A stretch of DNA of 8,685 bases, from NCBI GenBank assembly GCA_012031335.1, contig JAAUTT010000138.1, positions 1-8,685 of the forward strand. The letters run 5' to 3'. A model generated the notes under the pieces. It had not been told where the DNA came from, did not search any database, and saw nothing but the letters and a program-made list of their open reading frames with translations. A program made the position numbers and the translations under genes. Position 1 is the first letter of the stretch, and each line of letters starts with the position of its first letter. Positions 1,157-8,404 of this stretch are shown here, piece after piece. The DNA comes from Bacteroidales bacterium. Lineage in GTDB: Bacteria; Bacteroidota; Bacteroidia; Bacteroidales; JAAUTT01.

Positions 1157-2638
1157 ATGACAACATCCACTTCTCAAATAAATGACTCCGGATTATTTCG
1201 AGGGTATTTTTTAGGAGATACCCTTCTGGATGAAGTTTTTGAACAAAACTCAGCTGCGAACCAAAACTATAAAGACCTTCTGAAATATTACCAGACTTAT
1301 AATCAGGATGAGTTTAAAATATTAAATGAATATGCTAAAAAAAGTTTCCTTACCCGTGGAATAACTTTTGCCACCTATACCAATAATCCGAAGGGTAATG
1401 AGCGCATATTCCCCTTTGATCTGTTTCCAAGGATTATTCCAATGAATGAGTGGCTTACCCTGGAAAAAGGACTTATTCAGCGGGCAAAGGCCATTAATTT
1501 ATTTCTGCACGATATATACCATGAGAATAAAATCCTGAAAGATAAAGTTATCCCGTCCGATCTGATTTTTTCCTGCGGAAACCTGAACCGCTATATGCAA
1601 AATGTAACGCCCGTGGGCGGTGTTTACAACCATATTTCGGGTACCGATATTATAAAACACAACGATGGTAACTTTTATGTTCTGGAAGATAATGTTCGCT
1701 GCCCGTCGGGAGTCAGCTATGTGCTCGAGAACCGGGAAGCCATGAAGAAAAACAATTCCCGGAATTTTTTTCGCTCTATAAAACCTGTCCCGTTTCGGGA
1801 TATGCTGAAGCACTGCATAATATAATGCGCTCTGTAAGTCCTGATAATGTCGACAAACCTGTTTGTGCCGTTCTCACGCCAGGCGCTTATAATTCGGCCT
1901 ACTACGAGCATTCATTTCTGGCTCAGGGTATGGGGGTGGAATTAGTTGAAGGCAGAGACCTTTTTTACTGAAAACGATTTTGTTTATATGCACACGGTAT
2001 ATGGGCCAAAAAAGGTGGATGTGATTTATCGTCGGGTAGATGATGAGTTTATGGATCCGCTGGTATTCCGCTCCGATTCAGTGCTGGGAGTTCCGGGATT
2101 AATGAGTGCATACCGTAAAGGCAATGTTTCGCTTCTTAATGCTATTGGTACCGGAGTTGCCGATGATAAAGCTATTTATACATACATACCCGAGATTATT
2201 AAATATTACCTGGATGAAGATCCGATTCTGAGCAATGTACCTACATACCGTTGCGATGTCGAAACTGAACGGAAGTATATCGAAGAGAATATGCATAACC
2301 TGGTGGTAAAACCGGTTGATCAGTCGGGTGGATACGGAATATTTATCGGCAGCCAGGCCACCAGAGAGGAAATTAGCCTTCAAAAGGACAAAATTAAAGC
2401 ACATCCACGAGGTTTTATTGCACAGCCAATCATGAGTTTGTCCGTTCATTCCACTTATATCGAAAAGGAAAATGTGTTTCAGCAGCGGCATATTGACCTG
2501 CGAACATTTACGTTGCTGGGTAAAAATAAAGCATTTGTGCTAAAAGGAGGATTATCGAGAGTTGCCCTGAAAAAGGGTAGTCTCATTGTTAATTCTTCAC
2601 AGGGAGGTGGTTCTAAAGATACATGGGTAATCGAATAA
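1157..2638 (+). CDS. Circularly permuted ATP-grasp protein (COG2308, CP_ATPgrasp), frameshifted
   Basis: This family is predicted to use ATP to activate a carboxylate and form an amide or peptide-like bond; the substrate is unknown. The permuted layout shows RGITFATYTN and the RIFPFDLFPRIIP segment (about residues 68-98), then the acidic EDNVRCPSGVSYVLENRE block (about 178-195). After these come the KPVDQSGGYG glycine loop (about 382-391), the FIAQP hinge, HIDLRTFTLL and the C-terminal SSQGGGSKDTW. Two shifts split the gene. Near 1750-1758 an A-rich stretch breaks MKK from PEFFSLYKTCPVSGYAEALH. At 1961-1966 one extra T in a six-T run breaks RDLF from TENDF. Between them the third frame reads MRSVSPDNVDKPVCAVLTPG, clearly the same protein. 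Corrected length is about 492 aa, normal for the family. It is the first gene of the operon and ends 7 bases before the alpha-E gene. Reaction inferred, family sure. Confidence 0.9.
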
Positions 2639-2645
2639 CAATACT

Positions 2646-3584
2646 ATGCTTTCACGGGTAGCCGATAATTTGTTTTGGATGGGTAGGTATATCGAAAGAG
2701 TCGAGCATTTGACAAGGTATCTCAATGTTCAGTATTTCTCATCCATTGAAGTACCTTATCCACAATTGCGGGAAAGAGCTTTGTATTCCATCCTGGATTT
2801 GGTGAGTCAGAAATGGAGAGAATCGCGTCCCTCAGAGGAAGAAATCCTTGTTTCTGTTGCCTTTAACGAAAGAAATCCCGAATCCATCCTTCAACTGTTT
2901 ATTATGGTCGCGAAAACGCACGTAGTGTGCGCGACTCAATTTCTGCGGAGGTATGGGAAGCAATAAATCAAAGTTATCTTTTTGTTTCGGCATTTTTCGC
3001 TCGATTTTTTATAAAAACCCGCGGTTTTACATGAATTCACATCACAAGTTATAAACAACAGTTCGATTATTCGAGGTAAAATACATCATACCATGCTGCA
3101 TGATGTAGCCTGGAATTTCATTCAGTTGGGTATGCATCTTGAGCGATCTACTCAGCTCATCAGGATGTTAATTAGCAAACTCACTGAAATAAACGAACTT
3201 CATGAGTATAAGGTAGGTGAAGCCCTGGAAATTCAACAATGGAACATCCTCCTCGATTGTGCGGAAGCCCGGGACATGTGCCGTAAGTTTAATAACGCCT
3301 CTCCCGACAGGTTGCTTGCTCTTGAGTTCCTTTTGCTAAACCCGCGATTCCCAAGATCGGTGGTGTATAATCTTACTCATACTCTAAATTTCCTTGGAAG
3401 AATTAATCCCACCAAATTGAACCATAAAGGCTCTTTGGAGTTTAAGGTAGGAAAGATTATAAATCATTACCAATATCTCGAAATAGAGGATATTCAGAAC
3501 AATATGATTCCTTTTTTAGAAGAAAGTCGGAAAAATATATATCAGATATGCGATTTAATTGTAGACGAATATTTTAGATATTAA
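2646..3584 (+). CDS. Alpha-E domain protein (DUF403/COG2307), frameshifted
   Basis: Alpha-E proteins are all-helical partners found almost always beside circularly permuted ATP-grasp genes; their biochemical role is not established. The opening MLSRVADNLFWMGRYIERVE is a family hallmark, repeated as a related element LGMHLERSTQLIRML in the C-terminal half. Two shifts occur. Near 2894 one base seems missing; restoring it gives YYGRENARSVRDSISAEVWE. At the T-run 3025-3028 one T seems extra; removing it restores LHEFTSQVINNSSIIRGKIH. The two shifts cancel, so the corrected product is 312 aa, the usual size, and the final 163 residues are in the starting frame. The stop overlaps the next start (TAATG at 3582-3586), implying translational coupling with the transglutaminase-like gene. 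Confidence 0.9.
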
Positions 3585-4468
3585 TGAACAAGTATCAGGT
3601 AAGCTATATAACAGACAATTATTATTCACAGCCAGTTCATAAGGCTGTACTTGAATTTATGGTATTACCCGAAAAAACATCTTCTCAAAACTATTACGAT
3701 CTAAAGATTGAAAATTCACTGGGAATAAATGCTCAATTTTCGCATTCGCTGTTTAATGCCAATTTGCTCAGGTTTAATTTACAAAAGCCTTTTTCAGCAT
3801 TTGGAATGAAGGTTTCCTTTACTGTAGAGAAGGAGGTAATTAACCCCTTTGACTTTATAGAATTGTCATGTGAACTCGAAAATAAAATGTTGCATGAGCT
3901 GACATTTATGATTTCGAATCACAACTTTTTATCGTTAAGCCGTTATACTACTCCCGAAAAACAGGATATTCCCTGCATCATTATGCGTCAGCGTAACGAA
4001 CCGGTTTTTATGTATCTGCAAAGGTTAAATACTTTCGTGAATGGATTTCTGAAATACCAAACAAACTCAACAACCACTCAAACCATGATTGATGATATTC
4101 TCCTTCATCGTAAAGGAGTTTGTCAGGATTTTGCTCATCTGTTTATATGTCTTGCGAGAATCAGTGGCATCCCTGCACGGTACGTAAGCGGATATCTCGA
4201 CCAGGGTTCCGATTTAGCAGGAAGTGCTGCACTGCACGCCTGGGCCGAAGCTCTTATTCCAGGTATTGGCTGGATAGGATTTGACCCTGCCAATCGACTG
4301 GTTGCCAACGAACATTATATTAAAATCGCTCATGGCGTTGATTATGCGGATTGTATGCCTATTAAGGGAGTGCTTCAGTTTGCCGGAGAAAGTAATACTA
4401 ACTACTTTGTTAATGTTAAAATGAAGAACGAATTAAATTACATTCAAAACCAGGTTCAATCGCAATGA
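3584..4468 (+). CDS. Transglutaminase-like cysteine protease
   Basis: An intact 294-residue member of the bacterial transglutaminase-like superfamily (COG1305). The N-terminal beta-rich half (about residues 1-115) fits the bacterial transglutaminase N-terminal domain, followed by the papain-like core. The catalytic triad is visible: Cys180 in KGVCQDFAH, His218 in ALHAWAEALIPG and Asp234 in GFDPANR. No signal peptide is present, so a cytoplasmic location is expected. Most bacterial members act as peptidases or amide-bond transferases rather than classical cross-linkers. In this operon it could cleave or transfer the bond made by the ATP-grasp enzyme; that is inference. It overlaps the alpha-E gene by one base and the peptidase gene by four (ATGA at 4465-4468). 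It is the only undamaged gene of the four. Confidence 0.93.
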   Translation: MNKYQVSYITDNYYSQPVHKAVLEFMVLPEKTSSQNYYDLKIENSLGINAQFSHSLFNANLLRFNLQKPFSAFGMKVSFTVEKEVINPFDFIELSCELENKMLHELTFMISNHNFLSLSRYTTPEKQDIPCIIMRQRNEPVFMYLQRLNTFVNGFLKYQTNSTTTQTMIDDILLHRKGVCQDFAHLFICLARISGIPARYVSGYLDQGSDLAGSAALHAWAEALIPGIGWIGFDPANRLVANEHYIKIAHGVDYADCMPIKGVLQFAGESNTNYFVNVKMKNELNYIQNQVQSQ

Positions 4469-5177
4469 CATACTGTCTCGGCATTAAATTGAAAGAGGGA
4501 ATTGTGGCAATTTCCGACACACGTATCACATCGGGCACTGAAACTTCTGTTGCCGAAAAATACATTATTTACGAACATTCCGGTGGCCAGTTTTTTATTA
4601 TGACATCCGGATTACGCTCCGTCCGTGATAAAGTGGTAACCTACTTTAGTGAGTCGCTTCAAAAAAAAAGCCTGAACTGGAAAAACTTTACAAAGCTGTT
4701 AACCTGCTGGGAGAGCAAATCAGAAAGGTAGCCCGGGAAGACAAAAAAAACCTCCTGGAGGCCGGTCTTGCCTTTAACCTTTATATCATTATCGCCTGAA
4801 AACTGAAAGGCGATAACGAACATAAGATGTTTCTGCTGTATCCTGAGGGTAATTGGGTCGAAATTGACAATTATTCAAATTTTACCATTATTGGAAATTC
4901 AGGTTATGGAAAACCAGTGCTGAAGCGCACAGTACATTACGAATCATCAGTGCGTTTTGCCTTAAAAACCGGATTCCTTTCCTTTGATTCCACACGGGTT
5001 ATCGCAAACGATGTTGGATATCCGATAGATGTAATTATTTATAAACATGATAAACAGCAACTTCATGTGCGCCGTTTGGAGCAAAAAGAAATGGAACCTA
5101 TTTCCAAAATGTGGGGCGAATTGCTGGTTCAGTCGGTAAACCAGGTACCCGACCAATGGATGGATGAATTTATCTGA
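4465..5177 (+). CDS. Anbu-type proteasome-related peptidase (COG3484), frameshift plus in-frame TGA
   Basis: Anbu is an Ntn-hydrolase fold protein related to HslV and proteasome beta subunits that assembles into ring or helical particles in the cytoplasm. Removal of Met1 would expose Thr2 as the nucleophile (MTYCLGIKL). Asp18 in ISDTRITSGTE and Lys32 in AEKYIIYE occupy the places of the proteasome Asp17 and Lys33. A nine-A run at 4661-4669 lacks one base. Restoring it gives KPELEKLYKAVNLLGEQIRK and rejoins the later frame. Codon 112 (4797-4799) is TGA where the family has the second Gly of a GG-x-x-KG motif, and the codon before it is Ala instead of Gly. The rest, from KGDNEHKMFLLYPEGNW to DQWMDEFI, is normal. 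Corrected length 237 aa matches the family. Last gene of the operon. Confidence 0.9.
4789..4816 (+). repeat. Perfect 8-bp inverted repeat inside the Anbu gene, at the TGA
   Basis: TTATCGCC (4789-4796) and GGCGATAA (4809-4816) are exact inverse complements with a 12-base loop, TGAAAACTGAAA. The in-frame TGA is the first codon of the loop. The left arm contains the altered Ala codon GCC where family conservation predicts a glycine codon. Confidence 0.75.
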
Positions 5178-5280: not shown

Positions 5281-5741
5281 ATGGATAAAGTTAAAAAAGA
5301 GGGCCGCTATCAGCGGTTGTATTCCCAAATAGAAGGGTTGATGAAAAAATGCGAAAACCCTGTTTCTCGCATGGCTACTATGGCTGCGGTTCTACATCAT
5401 AAAATGGATGATTTTTTTGGACAGGTTTTTATCTGGTTCACAATGATCGACTATTGGTTGGTCCTTACCAGGGACCAGTTGCCTGTCAGGAGCTCGAAAA
5501 AAATAAAGGCGTATGCTGGGCTGGAATTAATGGTAAAAAAACGGTGGTGGTGGAAGATGTACATCAATTTCCCGATCACATTGCCTGCGATTCGAGATCA
5601 AATTCTGAAATTGTTGTACCTCTGTTTGATAAAAGCGGAAATATTATCGGAGTTCTGGACATCGACAGCAAGGAATTGGCTACATTCGACGATGTCGATG
5701 CCCGGGAACTCGAAAAAATTGTGATGTTGCTGTTTTCCTGA
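5281..5741 (+). CDS. GAF-domain free methionine-(R)-sulfoxide reductase, frameshifted
   Basis: This family (COG1956, fRMsr) reduces free L-methionine-(R)-sulfoxide with electrons from thioredoxin, a cytoplasmic oxidative-damage repair reaction. The first 46 residues read MDKVKKEGRYQRLYSQIEGL to HHKMDDFF. A seven-T run at 5412-5418 lacks one T; restoring it gives WTGFYLVHNDRLLVGPYQG and a 153-residue product of normal length. All three family cysteines are present at corrected positions 69 (PVACQ), 79 (KGVCWAG) and 103 (HIACDS). The spacing of 10 and 24 is the same as Cys84, Cys94 and Cys118 of the E. coli enzyme. SEIVVPLF and GVLDIDS, the GAF core, follow. It has its own promoter and its stop directly abuts the stop of the convergent barrel gene. 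Confidence 0.88.
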
Positions 5742-6353
5742 TCAGAAAAATAAAGCAGCGCCAAACACCCACTGACTCATTCTGCTGTCGAACGATCGGG
5801 TTTGGCCGGCAATTGTAACACCATCGCCCAAACGGCTCAGATTACCTTCATATTTAACATCGAGAGCAAGTTTCCAGATATCGAGGCCAATGCCAGCCTG
5901 GTAACCAAATGTTGCAGAGTTAAACTTATCACTGAAGTTATTTATATCTTTAAGCTCCGATTTGCTTTTGATAACAATACTGGCAACAGGTCCAACTCCC
6001 AAACGAACTGGTCCCCATTTGCCTCCAACCAGCACAGGAATTTCGACTTTTGAAAATTTCTGATCTCTCAAAGTGGATCCATTAACATCCGAAACTCTTA
6101 AAACACCTCCGGAGGTGGCAAATAACAATTCGGGTTGAAGGAAGAACTTACGAATCTGAATCTGACTGACAAGACCAACCTGAAAACCAATCTTTGCATC
6201 ATTTACCGTTTCAATTGTATAATCGCCGGCACTTACTTTGTCGGCTTCGAGCGTGGAAGAAGTAATACCTGCCCTTACCCCGAATTTTATCTGGCTTTGG
6301 GCGTTATATGCCACAAGAATGGCAAAACATGATAACAGAAGAATTCTTTTCAT
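5742..6353 (-). CDS. Outer-membrane beta-barrel protein (PorT / OMP_b-brl_2 type)
   Basis: An intact 203-residue exported protein. It has a Sec signal peptide (MKRILLLSCFAILVAYNAQS, with cleavage plausible around NAQSQ). Next comes IKFGVRAGITSS, the typical first strand of small Bacteroidota eight-stranded barrels. Alternating strands follow, with the motifs FFLQPELLFATSG, VEIPVLVGGKWGPVRLGVGP and FGYQAGIGLDIWKLALDVKY. It ends in Phe, as outer-membrane barrels usually do for assembly by BAM. Transport, adhesion or another function cannot be read from the sequence; PorT itself serves type IX secretion, but most proteins of this fold are unrelated in role. It is transcribed alone, convergent with the GAF gene; stop codons abut at 5739-5741 and 5742-5744. 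Confidence 0.85.
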   Translation of the reverse strand: MKRILLLSCFAILVAYNAQSQIKFGVRAGITSSTLEADKVSAGDYTIETVNDAKIGFQVGLVSQIQIRKFFLQPELLFATSGGVLRVSDVNGSTLRDQKFSKVEIPVLVGGKWGPVRLGVGPVASIVIKSKSELKDINNFSDKFNSATFGYQAGIGLDIWKLALDVKYEGNLSRLGDGVTIAGQTRSFDSRMSQWVFGAALFF

Positions 6354-6370
6354 TTGTTTAAGGTTTTAGT

Positions 6371-6379
6371 TCAAAATTA
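6371..6379 (-). promoter_or_regulatory. Possible -7 element for the barrel gene
   Basis: On the minus strand TAATTTTGA matches TAnnTTTGC except for the last base, 17 bases before the ATG at 6353. No -33 TTTG is visible. The remainder of the gene-free 6354-6594 stretch is AT-rich and must also carry the promoter of the phosphoesterase gene, for which I see no convincing box. Confidence 0.3.
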
Positions 6380-6594
6380 AAACTAAGTTTTTAATAAGTT
6401 ATTTTGATAACAGGATTAAAATAATCAACTCTAAATCTGTTAATGAATCTAACCTTTGAGATAAAGTTTTGTTTTAGCATTATTGCCATTTTAATCTTTT
6501 CCGGTTAATAAAAATAAAACGGATCTTTTACCGTATATTTTTTCAGGAATTCTTAATCTGTGCATGTTTCATAATTTCTAAATTGTGTATTTTA

Positions 6595-7863
6595 ATGAAA
6601 AAAACAATACTCATGCTTTTTGTGCTCATATTAATCATAATGCTCATTGTAGATGTTTATTCTTTCAAAGGCATTCGCATGCTAACTGAAAATCTGCACC
6701 AAAATTTTTGGAGAAAAGCAATTTACATCACTTTTTGGGCAACTACTATTCTCATGGTCCTGGCTATGGTATCAGGTTACTTCTTCCGAAGCAGCACCCG
6801 TAACCCGGCAGTTTTCACGTGGTACTATTATATTTTCGGTTTATTCCTTATTTTTTATATTCCCAAAATTCTTTTTGGATTATTCCATTTAACTGAAGAC
6901 ATAATTTACGGTATCACCTATGTTTTTCAAAAAATATTTCAGTCAAAAACAGCATCACATGCTGGTGGAGAGCCTATTACCCGTGTGAAATTTATATCAC
7001 AAACAGGCTTAATTCTTGCTTCCATTCCTTTTCTTTCTTTTATATGGGGAATTGTCCGCGGACGGTTTAATTTCCAGGTTGAGCCTGTAAATGTGGCGTT
7101 TAAGAATTTGCCAAAACGTTTTGATGGCTTAAAAATAGTTCATATTTCAGATATTCATATTGGCAGTTTCCAGGGATTTGAAAACCAGGTTAAGGAAGCT
7201 ATTGATATGATAAATGCACAGAAACCTGACTTGATTCTGTTTACCGGCGACCTGGTTAATAATTTCTATGAGGAACTGAACGGATGGTTGCCAATTCTGT
7301 CTAAAATGGAAGCCAAATATGGTAAGTATTCAATTTTGGGTAATCATGACTATGGCCATTATTATAACTGGTCCTCGAAAAAAGAAATGAATGAAAATTT
7401 CTCAAGAATAAAAGAGGCACATGCTCAAATGGGTTTTAAGCTTTTGAATAATGCATCGGAAGTATTTGAATTGGATGGAGAAAAAATTGCCATTATTGGT
7501 GTCGAAAACTGGGGCTTACCCCCATTTCCCCAAATTGGTGATTTTAAAACTGCGGTGAAGAATGTAGAGGATATTCCTTTTAAAATACTTTTATCGCACG
7601 ATCCCACACATTGGGAAGAGAAAATTCATGGTAAAACAGATGTGGCAATAACATTATCGGGGCACACCCATGGTATGCAGTTCGGAATTCAGGTAGGTAA
7701 TGTAAAATGGAGTCCTTCACAGTATAAATATCCCCGTTGGTCGGGTCTTTATAAGGAATCGGGTCAATACCTTTATGTAAACCGAGGATTTGGTTACATA
7801 GGCTACCCGGGGCGAGTAGGAATGCCTCCCGAAATAACCGTACTGAATTTGAATTCCGCCTGA
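6595..7863 (+). CDS. Membrane-anchored calcineurin-like metallophosphoesterase
   Basis: An intact 422-residue protein starting at the ATG 6595 (MKKTILMLFVLI). An upstream in-frame TTG at 6583 would add only four residues. The N-terminal third holds four hydrophobic segments, about residues 2-20, 40-64, 72-98 and 136-153. The catalytic domain follows with every metal-binding motif: Asp186 and His188 (ISDIHIGS), Asp219 (FTGDLVNN), Asn250-His251-Asp252 (GNHDYG), His335 (LSHDPTHW), His357 and His359 (SGHTHGMQFG). The layout resembles YkuE-like phosphoesterases, some of which act on lipid or cell-envelope phosphates, but the substrate cannot be told from sequence. It is monocistronic, and its stop is one base from the stop of the convergent DUF4252 gene. 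Confidence 0.93.
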   Translation: MKKTILMLFVLILIIMLIVDVYSFKGIRMLTENLHQNFWRKAIYITFWATTILMVLAMVSGYFFRSSTRNPAVFTWYYYIFGLFLIFYIPKILFGLFHLTEDIIYGITYVFQKIFQSKTASHAGGEPITRVKFISQTGLILASIPFLSFIWGIVRGRFNFQVEPVNVAFKNLPKRFDGLKIVHISDIHIGSFQGFENQVKEAIDMINAQKPDLILFTGDLVNNFYEELNGWLPILSKMEAKYGKYSILGNHDYGHYYNWSSKKEMNENFSRIKEAHAQMGFKLLNNASEVFELDGEKIAIIGVENWGLPPFPQIGDFKTAVKNVEDIPFKILLSHDPTHWEEKIHGKTDVAITLSGHTHGMQFGIQVGNVKWSPSQYKYPRWSGLYKESGQYLYVNRGFGYIGYPGRVGMPPEITVLNLNSA

Positions 7864-7864
7864 T

Positions 7865-8404
7865 TTACTTGTTTGCTCCAGGGGTAGTGGCCGGTTTTTT
7901 ATCCTGCATTTTTCCCAACTGTTCCATGCCTTGAATTTTCATTGTTTTCGATAATTGAGCAATGTTTTTCAAGTCAATATTTCCCTGAATTGAGATAAGT
8001 GTATTATCTTTTCCTCCCGCAATCAGCAATAATTCGATAATTTTCCCCTGGTATTCCCGCACCATAAATCGAACATCCTGCCCTTTTTCCTTGATTATCA
8101 TAAGCTCTTTATACTCTTTAACCGGTAAATCCTTCATAATCTCGGAAGAAAAATTGACTCCTTTGGGAGGATTTTCGTTATCAACAGCCAGAATCCGGAT
8201 ACTTTTCAAGCTTTTAACCAGATTATCAAAGTCCTTGTCATCGGTTTTCACATCTTTAAACATGCTGAACATATACTGTGTGATGTAAACCGTAGTAAAT
8301 CCGTCTTTTTCAGCATACCGGTCGAAAAGTTTGTCTACGGCCGATGTTTGTCCCCAACTCATCAGATTTACTGATATCAGTAATATAGATAACAGATATT
8401 TCAT
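7865..8404 (-). CDS. DUF4252 domain exported protein
   Basis: An intact 179-residue protein of a family found mainly in Bacteroidota and of unknown function. A signal peptide covers about residues 1-19 (MKYLLSILLISVNLMSWGQ), so the mature part is periplasmic or extracellular. The mature domain opens VDKLFDRYAEKDGFTTVYIT and contains IRILAVDNENPP and MVREYQGKIIELLLIAGGKD, then DNTLISIQGNIDLKNIAQLS, all typical of DUF4252. A lysine-, proline- and threonine-rich tail ends the protein. It lies 50 bases downstream of another minus-strand gene and is probably cotranscribed with it. DUF4252 genes often sit in clusters with an ECF sigma factor and a membrane protein, which may continue beyond the window edge. 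Confidence 0.85.
   Translation of the reverse strand: MKYLLSILLISVNLMSWGQTSAVDKLFDRYAEKDGFTTVYITQYMFSMFKDVKTDDKDFDNLVKSLKSIRILAVDNENPPKGVNFSSEIMKDLPVKEYKELMIIKEKGQDVRFMVREYQGKIIELLLIAGGKDNTLISIQGNIDLKNIAQLSKTMKIQGMEQLGKMQDKKPATTPGANK

Follow-up and report, generated by a model that had tools for sequence, protein, structure and literature searches.

The 8,685-nucleotide stretch analysed here (the window; contig JAAUTT010000138.1 of assembly GCA_012031335.1, from a Bacteroidales bacterium) carries, at positions 1157 to 5177 of its forward strand, genes for a circularly permuted ATP-grasp protein (AG), an alpha-E protein (aE), a transglutaminase-like protein (TG) and the proteasome-like peptidase Anbu, in that order. 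The cluster is a copy of the already described 'Anbu operon' (PMC6376114; this and the other papers cited are drawn on from parts of their text) and is not new; nor does it stand out as a minimal form. We consider it moderately probable (about 0.6) that the AG-aE-TG core of this Bacteroidota copy makes and processes an amide-linked product, that its Anbu, of the subtype Anbu-2, is an optional hydrolase with a probable preference for an acidic P1 residue, and that the reading frames broken in this contig were probably broken by sequencing error.

In all, 395 Bacteroidota genomes were surveyed with profile matches to AG (strong matches only), aE and Anbu. aE was detected in 143 genomes and strong AG in 143, with both present in 141, that is, in 141 of the 145 genomes with either. 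Nine genomes whose PF14403 matches were weak (E 1e-3 to 2e-11) are not included in the AG count; any match to PF14403 was found in 152 of the 395 genomes and a match above the curated cut-off in 147, and at least four of the nine omitted genomes pass that cut-off. Two weak aE matches (G152 and G281) were retained. No genome counts are given for TG, a broad family: the window TG has matches in 191 of the 395 genomes. Anbu was found in 25 genomes, all of which also carry AG and aE, while 118 of the 143 aE genomes had no detected Anbu. Genome completeness is not stated and a few Anbu absences may be gaps; insensitivity of the Anbu profile is an unlikely cause, since it recovers an alphaproteobacterial Anbu at 1e-36. 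Among 190 Alphaproteobacteria, aE was present in 70 and Anbu in 54; aE accompanied Anbu in 53 of the 54, and Anbu accompanied aE in 53 of the 70. In the lone Anbu genome without aE, Anbu lies about 1.9 kb from the start of its contig. These counts show that Anbu accompanies the core and that the core frequently occurs without Anbu. The association does not depend on adjacency: six of the 25 Bacteroidota genomes with Anbu keep both genes although the two are not neighbours, which is linkage without neighbourhood. Separate AG and aE genes that lie far apart or on different contigs, with both kept, were also seen in G080, G138, G191, G250, G276, G284 and G372, and G250, G276, G284 and G372 have an unlinked Anbu as well.

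Gene neighbourhoods were read at length for 60 aE loci, each from a different one of the 143 genomes; the choice took in most of the lower-scoring loci and a sample from the high-scoring group, so that proportions among them are not those of a random sample. AG lies beside aE on the same strand in 59 of these loci, and AG, aE and TG share one strand in 56; the adjacency of the three genes is therefore not due to chance. Anbu is a neighbour of aE in 14 of these 60 loci; among the 25 Bacteroidota genomes with Anbu, the two are adjacent in 19. The original prediction, made from the sequence of the window, described a system for making and cleaving bonds with Anbu at its centre, saw in the Bacteroidota version a possible minimal form, and took rarity of the four genes as neighbours to speak against it. 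No such rarity was seen for AG-aE-TG; for Anbu in Bacteroidota it was closely approached. Organisation around Anbu is consistent with the 4-nucleotide overlap of TG and Anbu in the window, with the 80 loci fetched with a TG query, of which 70 have Anbu and 67 all four genes (mostly Alphaproteobacteria; some contigs end early), and with the frequency of Anbu among aE-bearing Alphaproteobacteria (53/70). It is nevertheless improbable. The claim fails in Bacteroidota because AG and aE nearly always occur together there and Anbu is mostly absent (present in 25 of 143 aE genomes); moreover, the nearest sampled relatives of the window AG and TG lack Anbu, and the three-gene form is both smaller and commoner. 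Nor does the window represent a minimal form: the four-gene order is general for the operon (PMC6376114), in the sampled Bacteroidota aE loci more often lack Anbu than have it, and some members of the phylum carry a second TG or an additional amidoligase (DUF2126).

The arrangement of Anbu varied among the 25 Bacteroidota Anbu genomes. The order aE-Anbu-TG was found in 12 and aE-TG-Anbu-second TG in four; in three, aE-Anbu was accompanied by a long TG (1109-1127 amino acids) on the opposite strand (a domain scan of one of these showed it to be TG-DUF2126); and in four of the six with Anbu away from aE, a TG is adjacent to Anbu. A TG tree of 102 leaves places each of the 19 TGs encoded directly after an Anbu in one of two clades, one of 15 leaves (support 0.999) and one of 8 leaves (support 1.0); the other four leaves of these clades are TGs without an Anbu directly before them. 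The window TG is of the core type, sister (clade support 1.0) to the TGs of six distinct Anbu-less loci, drawn as seven leaves in the AG and TG trees since L001 and L131 are one locus. These loci include two from Flavobacteriaceae, Flagellimonas pelagia (L001) and Formosa (L002). The AG tree agrees, placing the same Anbu-less group nearest to the window AG among the sampled relatives, and searches of five whole genomes of this group (G001, G119, G131, G183 and G235) gave no match to Anbu. Another TG relative, P0002, is 73% identical to the window TG (longest contig 8835 bases). In an AG tree of 60 leaves, made up of the window, L002 and 58 of the loci read (the Fitch count used L131 and not L001), the label for an adjacent Anbu changes four times, compared with a mean of 13.5 and a minimum of 8 in 500 shuffles. 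Anbu adjacency thus tracks lineages, yet with several gains or losses among them. As a separate observation, a TG from one of the Anbu-partner clades occurs in the aE locus L161, whose genome (G227) has no Anbu match; this is perhaps a case of Anbu loss.

The Anbu subtype was assigned from a tree and an alignment of the S1 pocket. The window Anbu, its two pieces merged in one row, falls in a clade (support 1.0) made up solely of itself and 24 Bacteroidota leaves. The pocket alignment comprised Anbu from 24 of the 25 Bacteroidota Anbu genomes (not G077), the window, and 70 other Anbu from loci L001-L080, mostly of Alphaproteobacteria. All 24 Bacteroidota Anbu and the window have Arg at positions 50 and 53; among the 70 others, position 50 is Leu in all 70 and position 53 is Thr in 57, Ser in 12 and Ala in one. 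Thr1, Asp17 and Lys are invariant across all aligned Anbu. The window Anbu is therefore, by sequence, of the Bacteroidota Anbu-2 subtype. The Anbu-1 and Anbu-2 subtypes were defined, and the basic pocket of Anbu-2 remarked on, in work on Pseudomonas aeruginosa and Cytophaga hutchinsonii, and cleavage after acidic residues was proposed for Anbu-2 (PMC5666114). Since the S1 pocket has two arginines, Anbu-2 probably prefers an acidic P1.

A further possibility, which we regard as tentative, is that Bacteroidota have two modules: an AG-aE-TG writer, and a separately moving Anbu-2 eraser that often brings its own partner TG from one of the two clades and is tuned to acidic cuts. The product of the writer would then end in, or be rich in, Glu or Asp, and the window would show a less common arrangement, with the eraser joined directly to a core-type TG.

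Identities of the four genes were verified with Pfam, solved Anbu chains and an Anbu profile built here, and the families and their order are those that had been predicted. The AG gene (1157-2638, + strand) consists of two open reading frames (ORFs), at 1157-1825 (CP_ATPgrasp_2, E 3e-42, profile positions 1-124 of 374) and 1946-2638 (E 2e-77, positions 176-374 of 374). The nearest solved chain to the second is 3n6x, a 'putative glutathionylspermidine synthase' (E 1e-78). Together the ORFs follow the profile over its length with the conserved residues, and the part between them matches relatives in another frame. The aE gene (2646-3584, +) is likewise in two ORFs, 2646-2966 (Alpha-E, PF04168, E 3e-19, positions 1-84 of 294) and 3093-3584 (E 2e-28, positions 140-294 of 294), with the gap again matching relatives in another frame. 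The first carries the ER motif with R14, E17 and R18, which together with R93, N95, N112 and L206 are invariant in 54 aligned sequences. The TG gene (3584-4468, +; Pfam Transglut_core, E 6e-22) has the predicted Cys180, His218 and Asp234; across 102 aligned TGs, including the window and counting the single locus L001/L131 twice, Cys is present in 101, His in 100 and Asp in 102. The Anbu gene (4465-5177, +) is in ORFs 4465-4731 and 4827-5177. The Pfam Proteasome profile matched the first weakly (E 8e-4, 19.6 bits, below the cut-off of 22.4 bits) and a Pfam scan of the second gave no match; its identity was therefore taken from solved Anbu structures (best matches 1.4e-4 and 8e-17, respectively) and from our own profile (2e-25 and 1e-41). 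The first ORF, of the Anbu-2 subtype, contains both pocket arginines and the catalytic Thr1, Asp17 and Lys32/33, numbered Thr2, Asp18 and Lys32 in the original prediction.

Junctions within the cluster are tight, with a 7-nucleotide gap between AG and aE, a 1-nucleotide overlap of aE and TG and a 4-nucleotide overlap of TG and Anbu. A tightly overlapping operon had been claimed; this description stands for the junctions, apart from the AG/aE gap, but it missed the frame breaks in AG, aE and Anbu. TG is the only one of the four genes in a single intact frame. The middle of AG (about 1750-1966) and that of aE (about 2890-3030) each leave to a second frame and then return, and Anbu has one frame shift at or near a run of nine A (4661-4669) and an in-frame TGA at 4797-4799, ahead of its second ORF. 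When read in the other frame, the out-of-frame stretches show 44-67% identity to relatives. Breaks also affect both flanking genes. Upstream and divergent, a prfC-like GTPase gene (2-955, - strand; named from its GTPase matches) is split into three ORFs that span successive parts of the GTP_EFTU profile, and downstream a GAF-domain gene (5281-5741, +) has a frame shift near a run of seven T at 5412. Sequencing error is probably the cause, and likelier than decay, because the sequence of the broken stretches, read in another frame, continues to match relatives and because the neighbouring genes are broken likewise. A decaying pseudogene cluster with genuine breaks would account for several frame breaks plus a stop, and although the shifts in Anbu and in the GAF gene lie near homopolymer runs, not all breaks sit at long runs. 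Such decay nevertheless appears very unlikely: family sequence is preserved in the out-of-frame stretches, and the prfC-like and GAF genes are broken as well. In addition, of the 78 AG columns that do not vary among 124 relatives, 67 are kept in the window, 10 fall in the broken stretch and one differs. The GAF gene presumably encodes a protein resembling free methionine-R-sulfoxide reductase; its family did not recur beside the operon in the loci clustered, where not all neighbours were named. Beyond it, 5742-8404 holds genes for an outer-membrane beta-barrel protein (-), a calcineurin-like phosphoesterase (+) and a DUF4252 protein (-), all intact.

ATP-grasp ligases build amide bonds via acyl phosphates. 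From its family, AG would activate a carboxylate with ATP and join an amide bond, and aE may be its constant helical partner, as suggested by their co-occurrence and by the AG-aE fusion in a paralogous system. TG, a cysteine enzyme, would hydrolyse or transamidate the product, and Anbu-2 could act as an optional N-terminal-threonine hydrolase that cuts after acidic residues, judging from the aligned pocket. Because this pocket points to acidic cleavage, the product or its protein conjugate would probably have Glu or Asp at the cut site. Iyer et al. in 2009 reportedly made a comparative-genomic prediction for the cluster. The idea of peptide synthesis or tagging is credited to them in PMC5666114, and the available parts of that paper and of PMC6376114 give no settled substrate, as the original prediction had it; its description of the cluster as the predicted ligase, alpha-E, transglutaminase and Anbu system is likewise supported.

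The likely setting, by analogy with Pseudomonas and Burkholderia, is nitrogen limitation, under which P. putida PP_2686-2688 rose 11-37 fold (PMC7801951). PP_2685 (Anbu) and PP_2688 (AG) are both strongly nitrogen-responsive (PMC8050072), B. cenocepacia DUF404/407, DUF403 and TG genes fell 6-9 fold in an ntrC mutant (PMC5491218), and marine metagenomes associate these domains with urea metabolism. It is also conceivable, if rather unlikely, that Anbu serves general protein degradation under nitrogen starvation, as a complex chemically unlinked to the ligase, and that clustering reflects shared regulation. Fuchs et al. favour protein degradation over a role in peptide synthesis (PMC5666114), cloning of the regions 5' of PP_2685 and of PP_2688 gave two distinct promoters, both nitrogen-sensitive (PMC8050072), and induction of PP_2685 was only 1.1-4.8 fold, against 11-37 fold for its neighbours (PMC7801951). 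Against such a chemically independent Anbu, it occurs without aE in only 1 of 54 Alphaproteobacteria and 0 of 25 Bacteroidota Anbu genomes, even when unlinked.

Several observations weigh against an AG-aE-TG core with Anbu-2 as an optional acidic-site hydrolase, among them the weaker induction of PP_2685 than of its neighbours in one of the two P. putida studies. The ATP assay that had been suggested as a check has in part been done: the ATP-grasp protein of Yersinia bercovieri frees phosphate from ATP, with no stimulation by Gln, Glu or Anbu (PMC6376114), so that an acidic substrate is an inference from the pocket. According to parts of the same paper, the Anbu proteins tested had no peptidase activity on standard 20S substrates, including peptidyl-glutamyl ones, in an assay without Anbu-2, and co-expressed operon proteins showed no specific binding. 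The role of aE is a guess, because there is no confident solved relative: a relative's structure is predicted confidently (pLDDT 93), but neither Foldseek nor VIA-align gave a convincing match among solved structures. The Fisher values for co-occurrence ignore kinship. Finally, the plain order of the window, aE-TG-Anbu with Anbu directly after a core-type TG and no partner TG, was not seen in any of the 25 sampled Bacteroidota genomes with Anbu, and the window arrangement is therefore perhaps untypical.

The cluster is widespread, and the question of its substrate has stood since the comparative-genomic prediction. What the present analysis adds is the counts that mark AG-aE(-TG) as the core and Anbu-2 as an optional addition with a basic pocket; the first parts of interest that they suggest are AG with aE, a pair that stays constant, in Bacteroidota that lack Anbu, and Anbu-2 with an acidic P1.

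Compared with known systems, the window shares with the Anbu operon of Y. bercovieri (ATP-grasp, alpha-E, transglutaminase-like, Anbu, in that order; PMC6376114) the four families, their order and the Anbu catalytic residues, but its Anbu has two Arg in place of Leu and Thr/Ser, and its frames are broken. Anbu-2 of C. hutchinsonii (PMC5666114) resembles the window Anbu in I20, A29, the basic pocket and the same residue set; its pocket is printed there as R46-R50-T53, whereas our alignment, in which the C. hutchinsonii sequence was not compared, gives T46-R50-R53. A second, paralogous amidoligase operon (L161 and L208-L214) has AG, aE and TG domains in common with the window. Unlike the window, it has AG and aE fused in one frame of 850-905 amino acids (Pfam was run on one fused protein), which in L161 adjoins a TG-DUF2126 protein; this protein, of 1110 amino acids, has no counterpart in the window. 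The Anbu-less cluster of F. pelagia, Formosa and four more loci provides the closest sampled AG and TG and has the same three-gene order, differing from the window in that the window has Anbu and the five genomes searched show no match to it.

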